Below are positions 2,343 through 17,260 of a stretch of DNA of 23,371 nt, one piece after another. The notes beneath the pieces are model-generated. The model had not been told where the DNA came from. It did no database searches and was given only the letters and a program-made list of their open reading frames with translations. The stretch comes from Vairimorpha ceranae (Eukaryota; Microsporidia; Nosematidae): contig NW_020169358.1 in the NCBI RefSeq assembly GCF_000988165.1, forward strand, positions 1 to 23,371. Reading direction: 5' to 3'. Position 1 is the first letter of the stretch. Each line of letters starts with the position of its first letter. A program made the position numbers and the translations under genes.

Positions 2343-3314
2343 TTATTTAATCTGTATCTTTCGTATTATTAACGATGAATCAATAATTTTTTTTTCTACT
2401 TTAAGAACATCTAAAAATAATAAGTCACATAAATTATCATTAGTTGAAAGTGAAGGACATGTCCTTCCTAAATCTCCATGTACAAATTCTTTAATGTATG
2501 TCCCTGCCGATGCTTTAAGAATAACAGTGTAGTAGTAAAAATCTACTGGTAGAATATTTTCGCTAAATTCCTTTTTTAAGTCTTCACTGTAGCAAAAATC
2601 ATTTTGCAAATCTTTACATAAATTAGTCTCTAAAATTTCAATATATTTTTTTCTAACTAAATTAGCTCTCCTATGGAGAACTCTTAAAGGTGTTTTTTGC
2701 AATAATTTATATTCCTTTTCAAATATAATTTCTTTTTTACTTGCTATAAATAATCTATAAACCTTATTTTCTTCTTTTTCACCACACAAAATAAGTTTTT
2801 TTATGTCTTTTGTGACTTGCATAAAATTTTGTATTTTTACATTGTCGTACAAATGTAAACTAATACGATCATTAAATAAATTACAAGTTGGTTCTACTAC
2901 TTTAAGAAGAAAAGGACGACCTCCTATCATTTTTACATCTATATCTTCTCTACCAGATGGTATAAATTTTACATCTTTAGATTTATAGTGTTCTTTAATT
3001 TGATTAATAAAATCTGATACACTTCTTTTACACTTCAATTTTCCTTTTATTTTTAAAGGTGTCTGTGTCATTTCCCTTGATAATTTAATATATTCTCCAT
3101 ATAAAAAAATAGGACTATTTTTATGATAAATATTTTCTTCTTCTATAAATATTTCTGTATAATTATCTACCTGTGGATTTCCTTGTAGTAGTGTAGGTTT
3201 TAAAAGATCTTTTAAATATTCATTTTTAAAACAGTAAATTATATTTTCATGCACATTACTTTTTTGAGATTTTATATAATTTTCTATTTTTTCAGAAAAA
3301 AGCTTAATATTCAT
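2343..3314 (-). CDS. PUS10: tRNA pseudouridine synthase Pus10
   Basis: The product is a 323-residue member of the archaeal/eukaryotic Pus10 family, which makes pseudouridine 54 and/or 55 in the T arm of tRNA. The core motif GREDIDVKMIGGRPF spans residues 121-135; Asp124 is the expected catalytic residue. The second family signature AGTYIKEFVHGDLGRT lies at residues 270-285. The protein is shorter than most eukaryotic Pus10, and I see no N-terminal CxxC pairs of the zinc-binding part, which fits microsporidian reduction. Its 120 N-terminal residues may be a degenerate THUMP-like region. GGG at 3329-3331 on plus, which is CCC on the coding strand, lies 14 bases before the ATG. It is divergent from VMA6 and convergent with the small acidic gene. 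Confidence 0.93.
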   Translation of the reverse strand: MNIKLFSEKIENYIKSQKSNVHENIIYCFKNEYLKDLLKPTLLQGNPQVDNYTEIFIEEENIYHKNSPIFLYGEYIKLSREMTQTPLKIKGKLKCKRSVSDFINQIKEHYKSKDVKFIPSGREDIDVKMIGGRPFLLKVVEPTCNLFNDRISLHLYDNVKIQNFMQVTKDIKKLILCGEKEENKVYRLFIASKKEIIFEKEYKLLQKTPLRVLHRRANLVRKKYIEILETNLCKDLQNDFCYSEDLKKEFSENILPVDFYYYTVILKASAGTYIKEFVHGDLGRTCPSLSTNDNLCDLLFLDVLKVEKKIIDSSLIIRKIQIK

Positions 3315-3537
3315 TTGTTACTAAATAAGGGTTTTATTTTTTTAATAAGAACTATTTAATCTTTATTTGTTTCAAAGAAAATAAACTTTTTACAAGTAAG
3401 TGTTCTACTATGATTTTTTATAAACAATAAAAAATTACTATAAATTGTTCATTTTTAAAAATAAAAAAATCATTAACATAAATTGTTAAAAAATAATCAT
3501 TTTTATAACCTAATAATAATTATTTATTGGTTCTTTA
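3315..3537. promoter_or_regulatory. Divergent PUS10/VMA6 intergenic region
   Basis: This AT-rich spacer lies between two divergently transcribed genes. The PUS10 start signal (CCC on minus) is at 3329-3331. TTGTTA-type short repeats occur around 3440-3490. No conserved upstream site beyond the CCC motifs can be named. Confidence 0.45.
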
Positions 3538-3645
3538 TTTATTTATTTACAAATAATAACACTGATTATTTGATTTTTAGTTTTTGTGCCGTAGAAGCTT
3601 TCTTAGATGACAATAAATTTATTTTATTTATTTACAAATAATAAC
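3538..3645 (+). mobile_element. 5'-truncated retroposon insert with 23-bp target duplication
   Basis: Bases 3561-3625 match the 3' end of the dispersed repeat, from ACTGATTATTTG through GTAGAAGCTTTCTTA and AATAAATTTATTTTATT. The insert is flanked by a perfect 23-base direct repeat, 3538-3560 and 3623-3645, each ending ACAAATAATAAC. The left part of the right copy overlaps the element tail, so the true duplication could be as short as about 14 bases. This is the signature of target-primed integration of a 5'-truncated element. The right copy runs directly into the CCC start signal of VMA6. Confidence 0.85.
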
Positions 3646-3647
3646 CC
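3645..3647 (+). promoter_or_regulatory. CCC start-proximal motif of VMA6
   Basis: CCC lies 5 bases before the ATG at 3653. The same motif precedes RRS1, the Utp12-like gene, the DHHC gene and PUS10. In microsporidia CCC- or GGG-like motifs next to the start codon are a known transcription signal. The element insertion ends at this motif without breaking it. Confidence 0.6.
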
Positions 3648-3652
3648 TACTT

Positions 3653-4603
3653 ATGAATTATCAATTTGAGTGTACAGAAAATTACGGATATTTAATATCT
3701 TCTATTTTCGGTAAAGAACTTTCACTTTATAAAGAAGAAGACTACAACAGTCTCAAACAGTGTGAGAATATAGAAGAATTTTCTATAAAACTTATGAAAA
3801 ATTATAAATTTATTACAGAAGACATGGAGTTGACTAAAAATGAGATTAGAAAGAGACTTAATAAGACTATATTACAGGAATATAATAGCTGTATGTCTTT
3901 TTGTAATGATAATACACTAAAAATATTACTTGATTATTGGATTGAGAATCACATGATACACAACTTCTTTTTTCTTCTACAGTCTAAGATGGGAGACCCA
4001 GAACTAGAAAAATCATATAATAAAATAGAGATAGGAGATTTTAACGCACTTAAGACCCTTAAGTTTTGTAAAGATATGCATGATGTAAGAATGTTCTGTG
4101 TTGAAAATTCATTTCTTAAGAAATATTTCTACAGAGTGAAATGGGCTACTGATTTTAAAGATAATGATTTCCAAAAATATCAGGCTTTATTTCTTAAGTA
4201 TCTTATAGAAGATACATATGAGTCACTAAAGGATACAGATATTTTTATGAAAGAAATCCTAAGAGTAGAAGCAGATAGATATATTTTAGATATGACTATT
4301 AATACACTAAATACTAACACTGATAGAAAGAGTCTATTTCCTAATATAACATCTTTTGATGGTAAGACTATCGAGTTATTTATAAAAGCTGAAACATTAG
4401 ATGATATTGTAAATTTTAAGTACAGTGACTTTATGGAAAGGGAATTAGAAAAATATAAGGAGTCATTTAGAATACATAATGATGTAACATGTGTTTATGC
4501 ATATTTGAAACTTAAAGAGCAAGAAGTAAAAAATATTTTGTGGATAATTGAGTGTGTACTACAAAATAGAAGATCAGAATTAGAAAATATTTTTAATAAA
4601 TAA
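3653..4603 (+). CDS. VMA6: V-type ATPase V0 subunit d
   Basis: The product is subunit d of the vacuolar proton pump. It sits on the cytosolic face of the V0 ring and couples it to the central stalk of V1. The 316-residue frame shows the family start (GYLISSIFGKEL at residues 12-23, then SLKQCENIEEF at about 33-43) and the characteristic end (VYAYLKLKEQEVKNILWIIE near residues 281-300, then an arginine pair). Usual length is about 340-350 residues, so it is slightly reduced. There is no membrane segment, as expected for this subunit. It is divergent from PUS10. Its promoter has been interrupted by a short retroposon copy that ends 7 bases before the ATG, but the frame itself is intact. Confidence 0.93.
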   Translation: MNYQFECTENYGYLISSIFGKELSLYKEEDYNSLKQCENIEEFSIKLMKNYKFITEDMELTKNEIRKRLNKTILQEYNSCMSFCNDNTLKILLDYWIENHMIHNFFFLLQSKMGDPELEKSYNKIEIGDFNALKTLKFCKDMHDVRMFCVENSFLKKYFYRVKWATDFKDNDFQKYQALFLKYLIEDTYESLKDTDIFMKEILRVEADRYILDMTINTLNTNTDRKSLFPNITSFDGKTIELFIKAETLDDIVNFKYSDFMERELEKYKESFRIHNDVTCVYAYLKLKEQEVKNILWIIECVLQNRRSELENIFNK

Positions 4604-5105
4604 AATTCTTACTTTAATGTAAAATAGTAATTGTACCGTTGTCTATAAAATGTTTTAAACAGAAACTTTTTGTTGAGAAACAATAAAATTTTATAAATTT
4701 CAATAATTTTCTGCCCATTTCAGGAAGAAAGCAAAACCAATAAAAATATTATTGATACTTTTCATTTATTTTTTTACGTCTAGATGTCATTTTTAGATAG
4801 TTGGTTGTAAAGCATTTATTATTCTTATATAAAATTGTAGATGTATTGCTTATATAAAATTGTAGATGTTTTGCTACAATATTTCGTTTTAACTGTCAAT
4901 AAAGCAATTAAGCAGTTTTTTTCAATAATGAAATTAAAAATACAATGAAATTAGGAGGATTAAAGGTGCCAAAGCCTTAATAATTATTTATTTGTTAACA
5001 AACACCGAGCTAATCTATAATAGACAAGTATGTCCACCCTTACAGCATTTTCTAATCCTATTATTTATTTTTAATTTTAAGGCATTAAAAATCTTTTCAA
5101 TTTTT
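4604..5105. other. AT-rich non-coding stretch after VMA6
   Basis: No gene was seen. It contains the 25-bp direct duplication at 4824-4873. Bases 5078-5105 form the left member of an imperfect direct repeat flanking the dispersed repeat copy 3. Confidence 0.6.
4824..4873. repeat. 25-bp tandem duplication
   Basis: The two units are 4824-4848 and 4849-4873. Each begins CTTATATAAAATTGTAGATG and they differ at one position (TATTG versus TTTTG). This looks like a recent local duplication. Confidence 0.85.
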
Positions 5106-5304
5106 GAAACTCAAATTCCGCTGATTGCAGGTCACAGTCTTTATGACTGTTGAATTTTATCAAACCTACGGGATTCCCCATCTTCCTACAAACAAGGCTC
5201 TAGTGGTGTGCTGGTGTGTGTCAATAATTATTTGATTTTGAGTTTTGGTGCCCTAGAAGCTTTCTTAGATGACAATAAACTTATTTTATTATTTTTAACT
5301 TCTC
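5106..5304 (+). repeat. Dispersed repeat copy 3 with imperfect flanking direct repeats
   Basis: This copy is about 200 bases and matches copy 1 from about base 92 to 297, including CTTTATGACT, CCTACGGG, CTTCCTA, TTTTGAGTTTTGGTGCC, GAAGCTTTCTTA and AATAAACTTATTTTATT. It is flanked by 5078-5105 and 5305-5333, which share most positions (TAAGRCATTAAAAATC, then TTTCA and T-rich). They could be an aged target duplication. It is more diverged from copies 1 and 4 than those are from each other. Confidence 0.75.
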
Positions 5305-7327: not shown

Positions 7328-8779
7328 TTACATTGAAAAATTGAGACTGTTTATATCGCATATAACTTTTTCTATATTATCTACTAATTCATCGCATCCA
7401 GTATTGTCACGCGAACCCGACAGATTTCCGCGATAATCCTTCGTTCTTCTCATCGGATCACAGCCATCACAAGGATCATTAGATTCGGGAATTAAACCAT
7501 GTGGGTAATTTTGAATGCTATTAAAATTAGGGTCTTCGTGTCCCCAGATACCAGGATGTGATGGTTGACTTGGATAAAAGGGACTATTGGATGGATATTG
7601 GCCCGGAAATTCAGAACACTGATCAAATGAAGGCCTACCAGATGATGGATCGTTAGGATAATACGATGGTCTTCCAAAAGATGGATCATTAGGATGATAC
7701 GATGGTCTTCCAAAAGATGGATCATTAGGATGATACGATGGTCTTCCAAAAGATGGATCATTAGGATGATATGATGGTCTTCCAAAAGATGGATAATTCG
7801 ATTCCTTAAAATGTGGAGGCTTACCAAAATTTGGATCATTTATATACGAACCTTGTGGTGGTCTTCCAAAAGATGAATCGTTAGGATGATATGGCGGCCT
7901 TCCAAATGATGGATAGTTGGGGTTATAAGATGGTCCTCCAAATGATGGATAATTGGGGTTATAAGATGACCCTCCAAATAATGGATCATTGGGATGAAAT
8001 GACGGTCTTCCAAGTGACAGGTCATTAGAATGATATGGCGGTCTTCCAAATGATGGATCATTTATCAATGAATCGTAAGACGGGTTTGCAAGATCACAAT
8101 CAGGACTGTATAATGGATGCCCAGGTTGATTAGAAGGATGGTACGGGTGCCCCGATGGATATCTTGGTGGTTTGTATGGCGGAACAAAACTACTGTCTTC
8201 ATCATGTCTCGGTGGTCTTATTGGTCTAAATCTAGGAGGATAGTACAAATCATCGCCTATATCGTATCCATGTGGTTTCTTGTGTCCTCTCCATCCTCTT
8301 ACTACACCTCCATGCCTTTCCACAAACTCTTCTACTACAAACCTATCTTTAAATGGAATCCACCGGTATAACTGTTTATCATTATCTTTACAAGATCTTG
8401 CTCTTACATAACCTTCATCTTCTGCTTCTACACATTTTTCTTTGACAACTATTTTTATCATATTTTCTGGAAGTAGTGCAAATGTAAATTTTTCACTTTG
8501 CCATTCTGTGGGATCGTGTAAAATAAGCCTGTGATTATTAGTCCACCAATCTTTATCAATAACCTGGTCTCCTTGGTGTGGATATGGCCTGATTTTTAGT
8601 TTGTATGATTCATCACCACCTCTTTTTTCTATGTCAAAGACTTCAGGCATTTCATGTTTAGGAAGAATACGAATGTGATCACCGTCCAATGATAGGAACT
8701 TTTTCATACCCACTGAATAAATAAAGCCTTTTTCTGATATTTCTACAGCTAATAAAAATGAAATATGTAAAATTATCAT
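7328..8779 (-). CDS. Secreted ricin-B-lectin-like protein with proline/tyrosine-rich tandem repeats
   Basis: This is a 483-residue protein in four parts. A short signal peptide (about residues 1-15) comes first. A ricin-B-lectin-like beta-trefoil region spans about 16-150; its clearest mark is CVEAEDEGYVRARSC followed by QLYRW, the C...QxW pattern of that fold. A proline-, tyrosine- and histidine-rich linker covers about 165-238, and twelve imperfect copies of a 12-residue repeat (core DPSFGRPSYHPN) cover about 239-386. The C-terminal region has several cysteines and ends FSM. Microsporidia have families of secreted RBL proteins, and some polar tube proteins (PTP4-like) carry this domain. A spore-wall or polar-tube role is therefore inferred, not shown. 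Only the sugar-binding type of domain is present; nothing resembles a ricin A chain. No CCC motif precedes the ATG. Confidence 0.85.
   Translation of the reverse strand: MIILHISFLLAVEISEKGFIYSVGMKKFLSLDGDHIRILPKHEMPEVFDIEKRGGDESYKLKIRPYPHQGDQVIDKDWWTNNHRLILHDPTEWQSEKFTFALLPENMIKIVVKEKCVEAEDEGYVRARSCKDNDKQLYRWIPFKDRFVVEEFVERHGGVVRGWRGHKKPHGYDIGDDLYYPPRFRPIRPPRHDEDSSFVPPYKPPRYPSGHPYHPSNQPGHPLYSPDCDLANPSYDSLINDPSFGRPPYHSNDLSLGRPSFHPNDPLFGGSSYNPNYPSFGGPSYNPNYPSFGRPPYHPNDSSFGRPPQGSYINDPNFGKPPHFKESNYPSFGRPSYHPNDPSFGRPSYHPNDPSFGRPSYHPNDPSFGRPSYYPNDPSSGRPSFDQCSEFPGQYPSNSPFYPSQPSHPGIWGHEDPNFNSIQNYPHGLIPESNDPCDGCDPMRRTKDYRGNLSGSRDNTGCDELVDNIEKVICDINSLNFSM
7623..8065 (-). repeat. 36-bp coding minisatellite in the lectin-like gene
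   Basis: There are about twelve units of 36 bp, with two slightly longer ones in the middle. Units starting at plus 7671, 7707 and 7743 are nearly identical, and the unit at 7779 starts the same way before diverging. The outer units at both ends have drifted further. Because 36 is a multiple of three, unit gain or loss keeps the frame and also keeps a second minus-strand frame open; that second frame is not a gene. Confidence 0.9.
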
Positions 8780-10333: not shown

Positions 10334-11356
10334 CAATTTTTAAAAAAGAAGGGTTAAAAAATAAATGTTCAGATTCAAGCTTTTTATATATATAAAAGAC
10401 TAGCTAACGCTATCCCGTTTGAAACGTGATCAAAATAATGTGTGTTCTTACATTTGTTGTGTATGATGCAACTTTATGCCTGTATTTATTATTTTATATT
10501 ACAAAATGATTTTTTTTATTATAAATTAAAATTTGCTATAAACACCTTATATAAGATTAATTTAACTAAATAAAAGCAAGGGAAAATGCACGAAAACACT
10601 GTGCTGTGCTTAGAAAAATAAACCCTACACTTATGCTACTTGTATTTAAAAAATACAAAGAATTTTAAAAAAGAGGGGCTAAAAAATAAAAAAATGTTCA
10701 GATTCAAACTTTTTATATATATTGACTAGCTAACGCTATCCCGTTTGAAACGGGATTATAAACACGACATATTCTTATTTTTCATTGTGTAACATGTCTT
10801 AAGGCTTGTGTGCATTGTTTAAAGTACAAAATGTCTTACATTGTAAAGTAAAATTTGCAATTACAAAAAAATTGAAAAATCCTCTATAAAATACAAAAAA
10901 CCCATAATATCCTTTTAGTAACAATTATATACAAATCTTAAAGTTGTATTTTTGTGCTTTTAAATAAAAATTAAAACAGAATTTCACAATTTTAAAAAAA
11001 AGGGTTAAAAAATAAATAAATATTTAGATTCAAACTTTTTATATATATTGATTGATTGATGATAGCTACTGCTTTTCCGTTTTAAACGGGATTATAAATA
11101 CAATATATGCTCTTTTTTCAACCTGCGTTGTGTCTTTGGGCTTGCATGTACTGTTCAAAATTATAAAATGCACTATTGTCAATGATTAAATTTTGCAATA
11201 GTCATTATTCTATGATTTAAATTATTCGAATAAAATAAAAGAAAATTCACAAAAATATTGTGCTGTCCTTACAGAAATAAACTTAATACTTGTGTTATTC
11301 TTGCTTAATAAAAAGTACAAAGAATTTTACAAATTTAAATAAACGAAGGGTTAAAA
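10334..11356. repeat. Tandem array of about 325-bp units, three copies plus a fragment
   Basis: Unit anchors (AATTTTAAAAAA..GGG) fall with GGG at 10351, 10676, 11002 and 11348, giving spacings of 325, 326 and 346. Each full unit then has AGATTCAA.CTTTTTATATATAT, a TAGCTA- or TAGCTAC-like stretch, and a palindrome CCCGTTT-N-AAACGGG. It continues with loosely matched sequence ending in GTGCTGT.CTTA and TACAAAGAATTTT. Units are strongly diverged except around the palindrome. There is no open frame. The fourth copy is cut off after about 30 bases where Merlin-related sequence starts. Confidence 0.8.
10740..10754. repeat. 15-base palindrome in tandem unit 2
   Basis: CCCGTTTGAAACGGG has 7-base perfect arms around a single G. 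In unit 1 (10414-10428) one arm base has changed (CCCGTTTGAAACGTG). In unit 3 (11077-11089) the outer pair is lost but 6-base arms remain around a T. It is followed in units 2 and 3 by GATTATAAA. It may be a hairpin or a dimeric protein site. Confidence 0.75.
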
Positions 11357-12727: not shown

Positions 12728-12937
12728 GCTCGCTTTCGAGCAACAACGCACATCGCATTTTTTGTTACAAATTTTGAAAGTCGATATTTTTTACATTATA
12801 GATAGACTTCTATTTTCAAAACCTATATTTAAATATTCTTATATGGAAACCGAAATCGAAAATGCTTTTACATGTAACAAGATGAATTCCACTGCGATAC
12901 TTGCCATGTATATCTCATTGAAATTTTAAATAAATAT

Positions 12938-12983
12938 AAGTGCTTAACATAATTGGGGTTTAATAATATAATAGAATATAACA
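12938..12983 (-). repeat. 46-bp inverted partner of 16106-16150 (candidate LTR terminus)
   Basis: It matches the reverse complement of 16106-16150 at about 43 of 46 positions, including TTAACATAATTGGGGTTTAA. Read on minus it starts TGTTATATTC, and the TG start would suit an LTR end. It abuts the truncated RT fragment at its active site. A fragment of a retroelement end in inverted orientation is the simplest reading. Confidence 0.6.
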
Positions 12984-14850
12984 CCAGATGATATTCTAGT
13001 GTTTAGCAAGAGCGTAGAAGAGCACCTTAAGCATCTAAAGTAGATGTTGGAAAGACTACATAACAACAACGCAGACGTCAATTTCGAAAAAGTAGCTTTC
13101 TAAAAGAACCCGTATCCTATCTAGGATATAAAGTAAGCGCAAAAAAACTCAACCCGACACGTCCAGAATTGACAGGCCAAAAAACAGCGCGCTTAAGACC
13201 GTTCAAAAGCTTAGATCGATCCTCGGATTGATAAATTGGTATCGACCGTTTGTCAAAAACTTAAGCAATAAACTTGTTAACATAAACGCAAAGTTAAAGA
13301 AAAACATAAAGTTTACATAAAGTAAAGAAGACAACAGCACTCTTGAAGATATAATTTGTCAGATAAAGAGGAAAACCTTACTACATACCCCAGATCCGAT
13401 AAAACCCTTCTCGCTCTCACAGGCGTGCCAGATAGCGCCATCGGAGCCCCATTTCAACAAGATGGAAACCCAACCGGCTTCTTCAGCAGAACATTATCGG
13501 ACACTAAAACAGATACACAACGACGGAAAAGGAATGCCTTGCACTCATTAAGGCACTAGAATACTTTAAACAAATAATTTTGTTAAGCGAAATCAGAGTA
13601 TATATATAGAAGATAAAAACCCATATTCACAACAGAAAGCAACGATCAAAGAGTACAACGATGGAAACTATTGCTGGAAGAATACGACCACGGGATTAGT
13701 CATATTAAATGCGAACAAAACCAAGTTTCCGACCGTCTCTCAAGAGTTTTAACAATCTAAACAATAACAAATTGTGCGCTTTCAATACAAGAAATACGAA
13801 AAGCGCGAAAACATCTCTGACAAAATTTATTAAAAATGTATAAATCCTTAGTTCTTGAAGACGAAGATGGTATTATTGTTGATAAAGGGTCACAAATAGT
13901 AATTCCTGATTCTCTAGTTGTATCGCTATTAAACTCCATCCATAGGTACCTGACACATTCGGGCTCGAATAAGCTTTATTACACTATAATAAATTGCCTG
14001 CATATTATGAGGATAAAAGAACAGATAGCGCAAATTAAAGCAAAATACCTTCCTACCAGATGATAAACATCTCTACATAAAATGCGGTCCACTGAAAGAA
14101 CGTATCGAAGCAAAGGCACCATTTAAAGACATTTCAACAGACATCTATGGCACATTCGCGTTACCAAAAACGCCTAATAAAAAAAAATCTTTCTGTTAAT
14201 CATAACAGATGTCTTTTAGATAATCAGGGTTTGTCATCTTCGTAGAATCACCACTATCTTTGTACAAAGATATCTAGACACTTAGAATAATCAACCACGG
14301 TGCACTTGACACAATTCTTTTCAATCAAAGAAGACAATACAAATCAAGAATTTAAACGAGCGCTACATGAATATAATATAAAGCATAAAATCACATCCAC
14401 CTACAATACAATAGGAAACAGCATTTCAGAGCGATTTAACTAAACGCTTGGAGACGTTATACGAATTTAAAAAAGCAAAAGCTCACAGCTATTCTACAAA
14501 AGATAAATATGCATTTAATTTAACACATTGCAGAACACTTAAATACTCCCCATACGATGTGCTTTATCGCACTAGCCAACTTGACCCGCTACACAAAACA
14601 CTTAAAATTAACCTCAAAGGCATAGCTTAAATATTAAACTAGGCGCCGACCAGTCGTTACTCACTCGTAATGCCTCCAGATTACAATTTTTTTATATGCC
14701 TGGCGAATACGTGTGGGTTAGAAATACTGTGGCGACAAAAACAAGCGGCCCATAACTAGGCCCTTTTCGAACACAAGCCATAAACAAAAATAACAACAGA
14801 GTATTAGTAAGCACAGATGACACAACTTAATGGATAAACATCAAAATACT
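12984..14850 (+). mobile_element. Ty3/Gypsy-like retrotransposon fragment 1 (RT to integrase)
   Basis: Decayed pol sequence in shifting frames. It starts at the RT active-site DD (DDILVFSKS at 12987), missing everything before it. An RT thumb remnant (VSYLGYKVS near 13115) follows, then RNase H (AIGAPFQQDGNPTGFFSRTL at about 13430-13500). The integrase zinc-binding domain is at 13900-14060 (HRYLTHSG..., with the two later cysteines lost), and the core is at about 14125-14440 (FKDISTDIYGTF, then STYNTIGNSISERFN). A GPY/F-like end is at 14690-14850 (GEYVWVRNTVA, LGPFRTQ). This order, RT-RNase H-integrase, is that of Ty3/Gypsy. Many stops and frameshifts make it inactive. No LTR pair was identified. 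Confidence 0.88.
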
Positions 14851-15040: not shown

Positions 15041-16152
15041 ATGCCTTCCAGCAATTCTTATTCTTTTAAACAGCTTAGTCTGTTTGGTGTTTATATTCAG
15101 AACAAGCACCGTTCCGACCTAGGATCCATCAAATACGTTGACAGAAAAGAGATATGGGTTTTTAAAGCTGAAGAGAATGAGAGATTTCACCCGAGAAAAA
15201 TTGATTATTTATTGCCATTTGAAGTTAAACCATAGAAGTATAATTACAGTATATTAAGAGTTAAGAAAGTAATACTATTGGCCAGGAATAAAAGATCAGA
15301 TAAAAAAGTTTTAAAGAGATGCGAGACCTACCAGAAGTAGAACAGAAAGACGAGTGGAGGCAGTGATTTTATAAATACAATAAGATATTTTGAAAAGGTT
15401 GATATTGAATTTGGAGAAGAAGGAGTTTTTGTCATAGTTAGAGAAGATTATGGGGAAAAGTTATAAAAAGCAAGCATACATCTAAAGTAATTTCTTTTTG
15501 AAGTATTTATGTACTAAGGGTAAGAAACTAGAGAAAGTATTAACCGATAACAGCAAAGAATTTTGTAATGAAAACATGAGCAAGCTTTGCGGGATTTTAA
15601 GCATTGAACACAGGAAGATAAGCTTAGAGCAACACGGAAGTAATGGTAGGATTGAAAGAATTATAGGAAATAAGAAATGGAATATTGAGGAATAAGAAGG
15701 AATCATTTACAGAAAAAGTTTATAAAGCAATTGAGAAATGTAAGTTAAGTTTCTACGCAGGAATAAAGTGCACTCCAGTAGAAGCTGTAGGGATGAGACG
15801 GAACAGCTTTGATAGAGAATAGTCCCCAAGAATGTTATTCCAAGAGGTTTAGTCGTTGATATATGGAACAACTTTTTAAACACAAAAAGGTTAGAGTTGC
15901 TAAGAATGAGAATTTAAAAGGATATAATAAAAATACATTAAAGGCAGATTTTTAGATCTGAGTATAATGGTTGAGGACCATCCAGAAAATTCTTATAACG
16001 TGAGACTTGAAAATGGGAGTTATGCAAAGAAAAGAATTCATGACTCGAAAGGAATTAGTAAGGAAGTACCTTTTAAAAGACGAGACCAACCTTCTGTAGC
16101 GGGAGTATTATATTCTATTATAATATTAAACCCCAATTATGTTAAGTACTAA
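15041..16152 (+). mobile_element. Ty3/Gypsy-like retrotransposon fragment 2 (integrase)
   Basis: This is a second, different integrase remnant. An open stretch at 15041-15235 probably belongs to the region before integrase. It is followed by the zinc-finger part (YYWPGIKDQI near 15275 and KRCETYQK near 15311) and the core: FEKVDIEFG, VREDYG, VLTDNSKEFCNE at 15538-15573, then GSNGRIERIIG. KCTPVEA is at about 15770. A C-terminal domain follows at 15955-16152 (EDHPENSYNVRLENGSYAKK). Frameshifts and stops interrupt it several times. It shares little sequence with fragment 1, so the two are separate insertions, not one element. Confidence 0.85.
16106..16150 (+). repeat. 46-bp inverted partner of 12938-12983
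   Basis: It lies at the very end of the fragment 2 polyprotein frame, just where a 3' LTR would begin. The TG expected for an LTR start is TA here, which could be decay. The match to the other copy stops sharply on both sides. Confidence 0.6.
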
Positions 16153-17260
16153 TATTGCTCAATAATGTGACACGGCATAATAAGTAAATACCACCCTAAA
16201 AATGGTGGGGCTGGAAAGAGTGCTAAAATAGAAGCTTACATTTAATTTGTAAAGTTTAAGAAGACTCTTGGGGGAATTTCGATGTAGTATTGAAGAGAAT
16301 ACAAAATAGCGAAAGCCAAAGAGTAAGACCAACGAGAGCCGTTGTTTACACAAGGCTTATTTAGCATGATTAGAAAAAAATAATAAATTTGATATTTAAA
16401 TTAATAATTTATATATTAATTTAGATTCTTTTTGTTACTTGTAAATAATAATATTTAAACATTACATTTTTACTTTTTTTATAAATCACTTATATAATCC
16501 GTTTTTTAGCACACAAAGTTATCTTACGATTAAAAGTTCCGTACATGCTTGATTAATTAAGTTGAAAATGAAGAATGCAAAACTTTTGTGCTAGAAACTT
16601 AGACAAACATTTTATATCATATAACATATCAAATCTGTAATGTCATAAATAAAATTTAAAAGTGTAGGAATGCCTTCAACACATGTCAAAGATATCTTCC
16701 TATATCATGAGATATCTGACATGTTGTTAGTTAAATAATTTATAATAAATAAACCCATGTTTAATACCAACAAAAAGTTTTACTAAACCACATTCATGAC
16801 GCTTCTTTCAAGCTTATTGCAACAATACTCTCCATTTTCTTATATAAAGCAGCAATTTGTTTTCTTTCTTCTCTTTAAATCCGTCTCGCAGGATTTTTGC
16901 GAAAGTTCATTATCTTTTTACACCGCGTACTTAATTTCTGGTAAACGTAATTCGTAAAACTCCGCTTGTAATCGCTAGAAGTTATATAAATAAAATAATA
17001 TAACAACAAAGATATTTTTTATGATTTCATTGTAAATTTCTTGACTAAAGGAGATTTTGTGCCGTTTTTTGACTTTTAAAAAAAATCTACTAATGGTTTT
17101 TCGTAATCCAAGTAATATGTACTTAAGCAATCTTACATTTATTTACAATCTTTTTTAACAAATTCATTTTTGTAACAAAATTATAAATAAATATCTTATC
17201 AACGTATAATAAAATGGAGACATATTAGTTAATTTTAATAAAGGCGCTAAAAACTTATCA
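16153..17260. other. Non-coding stretch after Gypsy fragment 2
   Basis: Bases 16153-16375 are less AT-rich and may be the end of fragment 2 (a small hairpin CCACC..GGTGG lies at 16191-16208). The rest is AT-rich without a recognised gene. A long hairpin lies at 16678-16728. Confidence 0.5.
16678..16728. repeat. Long imperfect hairpin
   Basis: The left arm 16678-16697 and right arm 16710-16728 pair over about 17-18 positions (ACATGTCA-GATATCT against AGATATC-TGACATGT), with small bulges and a 12-base loop. No gene is nearby. It may be a miniature inverted-repeat remnant or a transcript hairpin. Confidence 0.65.

Follow-up and report, generated by a model that had tools for sequence, protein, structure and literature searches.

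A short LINE-tail retroposon directly upstream of the VMA6 start signal in Vairimorpha ceranae shares its 5' end with four other copies

LINE copies are usually truncated at random at their 5' ends, and some SINEs have their 3' end in common with a partner LINE. Among the microsporidia, V. ceranae included, LINEs are already known: in Table 1 of a 2014 survey, four families of LINEs are counted for Nosema ceranae and 15 for N. apis (PMC4202319). The scarcity of non-LTR elements in this lineage, assumed in the first-pass annotation of the DNA analyzed here, is thus not quite borne out by that table. For N. bombycis, figures of 1.04% of the genome for the Dong-R4 LINE and 0.18% for SINE are given in PMC3614468, and LINE repeats are described beside rRNA operons in PMC12449221. 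A CCC start signal is described for N. ceranae by Cornman et al. 2009 (PMC2685015) and for microsporidian genes by Peyretaillade et al. 2009 (PMC2803860).

The element that lies upstream of VMA6, which encodes V-ATPase subunit d, resembles the Nosema/Vairimorpha LINEs in its common 3' end, in target-site duplications of variable length and in the LINE-type coding sequence found upstream in longer copies. Unlike them, the VMA6-upstream copy comprises only the last ~62-74 nt and has a 5' end in common with four other copies. Like SINEs with LINE tails, the short copies are non-coding, have a fixed 5' end and carry the 3' end of a LINE; unlike usual SINEs, they lack a separate 5' head, are far shorter and number only five.

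The insertion site and its direct repeat

In the window, by which we mean the whole 23,371-nucleotide stretch of DNA analyzed, positions 3538-3560 and 3623-3645 are identical 23-mers (Table 1). The perfect 23-bp direct repeat claimed around the insert is therefore exact in its coordinates. A pattern scan of the whole assembly (4,559,957 bases) found the 23-mer at these two sites only when zero to two mismatches were allowed; at exactly three mismatches there were five more sites, against six for a reversed control pattern in the same assembly. The first-pass annotation had held that its reading would fall if the 23-mer were a common simple repeat, and this is ruled out by the lack of any further match at zero to two mismatches in the 4.56 Mb. 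Chance flanking repeats around 20,000 random positions, drawn from intergenic stretches that we picked ourselves, were at most 17 bp long, a length reached five times; the same script rated the real site 22, owing to its search range. Sampling of the whole window gave a flanking repeat of at least 18 bp at 32 of 20,000 positions, a sample that may take in a coding tandem repeat and even the VMA6-upstream site. The observation of an insert within a direct repeat upstream of VMA6 is confirmed.

Table 1. Features at the VMA6 locus, family-A copies and target-site duplications; positions without a contig handle refer to the window
Feature	Position	Strand	Remarks
Left target-site duplication copy	3538..3559	+	22 bp; 23 bp counting C at 3560
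Insert, 3' end of LINE family A	3560..3622	+	begins at CAC; homology to other copies extends to 3633
Right target-site duplication copy	3623..3644	+	22 bp
CCC start signal of VMA6	3645..3647	+	single copy, 5 nt before ATG
VMA6, V-ATPase subunit d	3653..4603	+	PF01992, E 5.2e-37; 76% to V. necatrix V-type proton ATPase subunit d
Pus10 C-terminal domain protein, divergent neighbor	2343..3314	-	PF21238, E 3.1e-49; upstream region common with VMA6
Longer family-A copy, cut by contig start	1..285	+	
Longer family-A copy (window 5227)	5105..5295	+	5' end about -117; 28-bp flanking repeat, 3 mismatches
Longer family-A copy, body reaching contig end	23216..23368	-	
Short copies	window 3560; C57:26812(-); C107:1676; C34:33001; C1:176464		upstream match lost
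Duplication, C57 short copy			17 bp perfect, 21 bp with one mismatch; ends exactly at short form's first base
Duplication, C34 short copy	C34:33001		8 bp, ending at short form's first base
Duplication, C34	C34:27279		15 bp perfect
Duplication, C88	C88:17835		11 bp perfect, 28 nt upstream of assigned 5' end
Duplications, family C	C96; C64; C42		15 bp perfect; 23 bp, 2 mismatches; 19 bp, 2 mismatches
Duplication, C114			only 10 bp, with one mismatch
Duplication, C26			11 bp perfect, 8 nt off assigned placement

The C at 3560 probably belongs to the insert, since C is the first base in other short copies too, and on that assignment the duplication is 22 bp long and stops right before the CCC. Compared with the majority of 17 aligned tails, the insert differs at 2 of 66 positions, T19 and T26 alone; given this and the identical repeats, the insertion looks recent relative to most family-A copies. 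A VMA6-based search of viral and genome contig collections for a relative with an empty site found none.

The window holds other repeats as well. An open reading frame of 483 aa at 7328-8779 contains a series of tandem coding repeats, each of 36 nt; its Pfam match was below threshold and we took it as chance. A unit of ~330 nt with TAGCTAACGCTATCCCGTTTGAAACG-like cores occurs in three copies at 10335-11159, and a tandem repeat of 28 nt is built of TCTCTCAGTCCCCGATTTGTATTCAAGC units at 1094-1219. A decayed RVT_1 fragment with two stops (12987-13103; E 3e-5, below the cut-off) adjoins an inverted repeat of 52 nt (12933-12984 with 16105-16156).

Dispersed copies and their LINE parentage

A DNA search of the assembly with 3480-3720 as query gave at least 19 matches; the repeated part of the query is 3560-3633. 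At least 18 other places thus match the insert (78-95% identity), and the homology extends to 3633, taking in the T-rich beginning of the right-hand duplication copy. The claim that the insert carries only the tail of a dispersed repeat holds: it consists of the last ~62-74 nt of a family-A LINE. When only these 74 nt served as query, the assembly yielded 21 matches with E values no higher than 10; its 3' part matched 16 places and its 5' part 11, each against 0 for the control, and none of the three queries added a placeable short copy. Twelve of the at least 19 matches extend upstream into common sequence, agreeing with GGTATGCTAGTGTGTGT at 12-17 of its 17 bases, while the five short copies agree at 3, 3, 4, 3 and 3 of these 17 upstream of the break. 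Two partial matches (C15:1882 and C22:69527) adjoin longer copies and are not placeable, so they were kept outside the short and long sets. The longer family-A copies that could be resolved have a common 3' end and 5' ends at about -90, -117, -480, -510 or further up; four longer copies reach contig ends, and the contig of the window itself ends within the family-A repeat on both sides.

As to their surroundings, each of the five short copies precedes a gene that runs in the same direction, but one of them sits between divergent genes (n=5). Elsewhere, partial LINE tails are stacked head to tail after a longer copy (L018:1560-1970 and L079:1357-1747), as if new insertions preferred the T-rich tail of an old copy.

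Because the longer copies carry LINE coding pieces upstream in the same orientation, we take the insert to be the 3' end of a LINE, here named family A. One such ORF piece is zf-RVT-like (E 0.003; 18.5 versus 27.5 bits, below the Pfam cut-off) and has eight matches in the assembly, itself included. Moreover, the C93 copy contains a segment that aligns, at 30% identity and E 7e-8, with the part of the C44 LINE that follows the reverse transcriptase (RT) core. Neither a family-A RT core nor an intact family-A parent element was found among the copies in the assembly. The C44 element (L039:358-3384) has an open LINE RT frame of 1008 codons, 80% identical to a V. necatrix pol polyprotein and 100% identical over the compared residues to "endonuclease-reverse transcriptase [Vairimorpha ceranae]". 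As a candidate parent it was rejected: a search with the 3' UTR region shared by families A, B and C misses C44, whose only tail match is a TTTATTTTATTT simple stretch, and since it is without the shared region we assign it to another family. The long LINE copy on C93 (L022) has for a neighbor, some 1660-2430 nt upstream from its tail, a broken transposase-like coding stretch, which by eye we take to be Tc1/mariner-like.

Target-site duplications were examined at 24 copies, the VMA6-upstream copy included. Clear duplications of 11-28 bp were present at seven other copies and one of 8 bp at one more; at C107:1676, C1:176464 and most of the remaining copies among the 24 no clear duplication was seen. 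The varying lengths fit target-primed reverse transcription (TPRT) rather than a DNA transposon. Insertion by TPRT, as originally proposed, is well supported by the sequence comparisons: the VMA6-upstream duplication is unique in the assembly, the 3' end is common with longer, LINE-coding copies, and sister copies have duplications of their own. In the proposed course of events, a bottom-strand nick would fall in a T/A-rich stretch, and the U-rich 3' end of the RNA would pair with the target (both share TTTATTTATTT), whereupon the cDNA would be made. The other nick would fall 22 bp further on, directly before the CCC, and filling-in would then leave the 22-bp duplication.

The common 5' end of the short copies

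In all five placeable short copies the break point is identical to the base, and the flanks are unrelated. A fixed 5' end, a feature of SINEs, is thus seen in 5/5. The first bases are CAC in four of them and TAT in the fifth (C34:33001), which is placed by its 8-bp duplication and by alignment. The 74 nt consists of LINE tail alone, with no other head, and no tRNA or Rfam family was found in the window at the thresholds used. T19 and/or T26 occur in four of the five short copies and are absent from all 12 longer copies (p 0.002 in a post hoc test). That test was made without the two unplaced matches, of which C15:1882 reads T at the ungapped position, and in it the T19 of L021 hinges on a one-base alignment gap. 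The first-pass annotation had called the insert 5'-truncated. Relative to the LINE this is right; random truncation, however, is not the whole story, since five copies break at one base.

We lean, with modest confidence, toward reading the short retroposon as the last ~62-74 nt of a family-A LINE, inserted by TPRT from what was most likely a discrete short RNA. A discrete template is preferred because five copies with unrelated flanks begin at the CAC position and because short copies have base changes in common; against it, five copies are few, two of them show no clear duplication and one reads TAT. The template RNA would most likely have started at CAC already, as a tail-only, SINE-like element. 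More tentatively, these copies may represent a tail-only retroposon of ~62-74 nt that has a fixed 5' end and its own RNA, is moved by LINE machinery and is able to land in a core promoter, as microsporidian start signals lie within ~10 nt of the ATG. Such an RNA would come either from an internal start site or from LINE RNA cut between GUGUGUGU and CAC. A narrow literature search found no tail-only element with a common 5' end, and we claim no absence wider than that search.

The main rival to a discrete short template is a fixed RT stop, which we hold to be less likely: the same TPRT would proceed from a longer LINE RNA, and the RT would leave the template at one preferred point next to GUGUGUGU, at the border on the 3' side of the conserved 3' UTR region. 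Indeed, the break sits exactly at this border, and the region upstream of it is conserved across the three families (A, B and C). For families B and C, which share this 3' UTR region with family A but have tails of their own, we read 19 stretches, and none of the 13 copies placed by eye ends at the break: the ends scatter from about -193 to +18, and 0/13 fall within 10 nt. RNA structure gives a mixed picture. One hairpin is kept through paired changes (13 cells versus a shuffled mean of 4.9, 0 of 500 shuffles), and the consensus fold has 31 pairs, 8 of them changed on both sides. However, two of five measures do not support the hairpin (254/500 for pairs changed on both sides and 500/500 for further pair types), and we chose the helix with the fold already in view. 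The fold of the single sequence is ordinary (z -0.30), with 76 of 200 shuffles folding as well. A stop caused by strong structure was therefore rejected, with partial support remaining from the one hairpin. Nor does an RT stop account for the bases common to the short copies only.

The shared 3' UTR region itself spans ~210 nt (L013:3624-3835, L081:48-277 and L103:177-383) and, with its kept hairpin, may be a binding site for the LINE protein. Family B has 6 matches and family C 28, several of the latter near contig ends and with no coding part seen. Five family-C copies (L103, L101, L085, L086 and L082) start alike at TGACCTGG, so family C too has a preferred upper end; it is possibly a ~300-nt SINE-like partner of a LINE.

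Ordinary random 5' truncation, with the common break point a coincidence or a sampling effect, is improbable. Truncation of this kind is seen in families B and C and in the longer family-A copies, but five unrelated insertions break at one base, with chance similarity beyond it. A non-retroposon origin is the least credible of all: DNA transposons and MITEs do occur in Nosema genomes (PMC4405373; PMC2685015) and the family-A repeat evidently troubles assembly, as the contig ends in it on both sides, but the duplications are not of fixed length (8-28 bp), the longer copies have LINE coding pieces in the same orientation, and a local duplication would not set a dispersed repeat between its copies. 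A MITE or TIR origin was also rejected, as no inverted repeat pairs one end of the insert with the other.

VMA6, its start signal and what the insertion means

The closest named relative of the VMA6 protein is that of V. necatrix. As the first reading had placed it, the insertion lies just before the start of this gene: the repeat ends by 3645, and the ATG of the PF01992 ORF is at 3653. In ORFs of at least 200 aa taken from the window and the fetched stretches, CCC occurs no more than 15 nt from the first ATG in 18 of 28, versus 166 of 3434 ATGs overall. VMA6 resembles other microsporidian CCC genes in the distance of its CCC from the ATG and in the A/T-rich stretch preceding it. It differs from them in the setting: behind its A/T-rich stretch there is now a LINE tail where the former upstream DNA used to be. 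Between VMA6 and the divergent Pus10-like gene the ATG-to-ATG gap is 338 bp, or, by subtraction, 253 bp without the insert and the second repeat.

The first-pass interpretation is amended in two points, the common 5' end described above and the start signal. The start signal was not duplicated, for VMA6 has one CCC. The duplicated target was also said to reach the first C of that signal; the A/T-rich 22 bp are indeed doubled, and the C is more likely the insert's own. The displacement of the old upstream DNA holds as geometry, this DNA being now 85 bp further from VMA6. We infer that VMA6 expression was unchanged, and the gene presumably kept working, because its single CCC and the A/T-rich 22 bp in front of it were left next to the gene.

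The class of mechanism is known, and the unusual part, the common 5' end, rests on five copies. Here retroposition has struck right in the core promoter of a proton-pump housekeeping gene in the compact genome of a honeybee parasite. The locus is thereby a natural test of the minimal microsporidian promoter, since everything beyond 22 bp upstream of the CCC has been displaced by 85 bp. If the common 5' end is confirmed, LINE machinery moves an RNA of ~70 nt without the rest of the LINE 3' UTR, which would bear on the smallest RNA that such a reverse transcriptase accepts. A tail-only retroposon, if true, would be among the smallest SINE-like elements conceivable.
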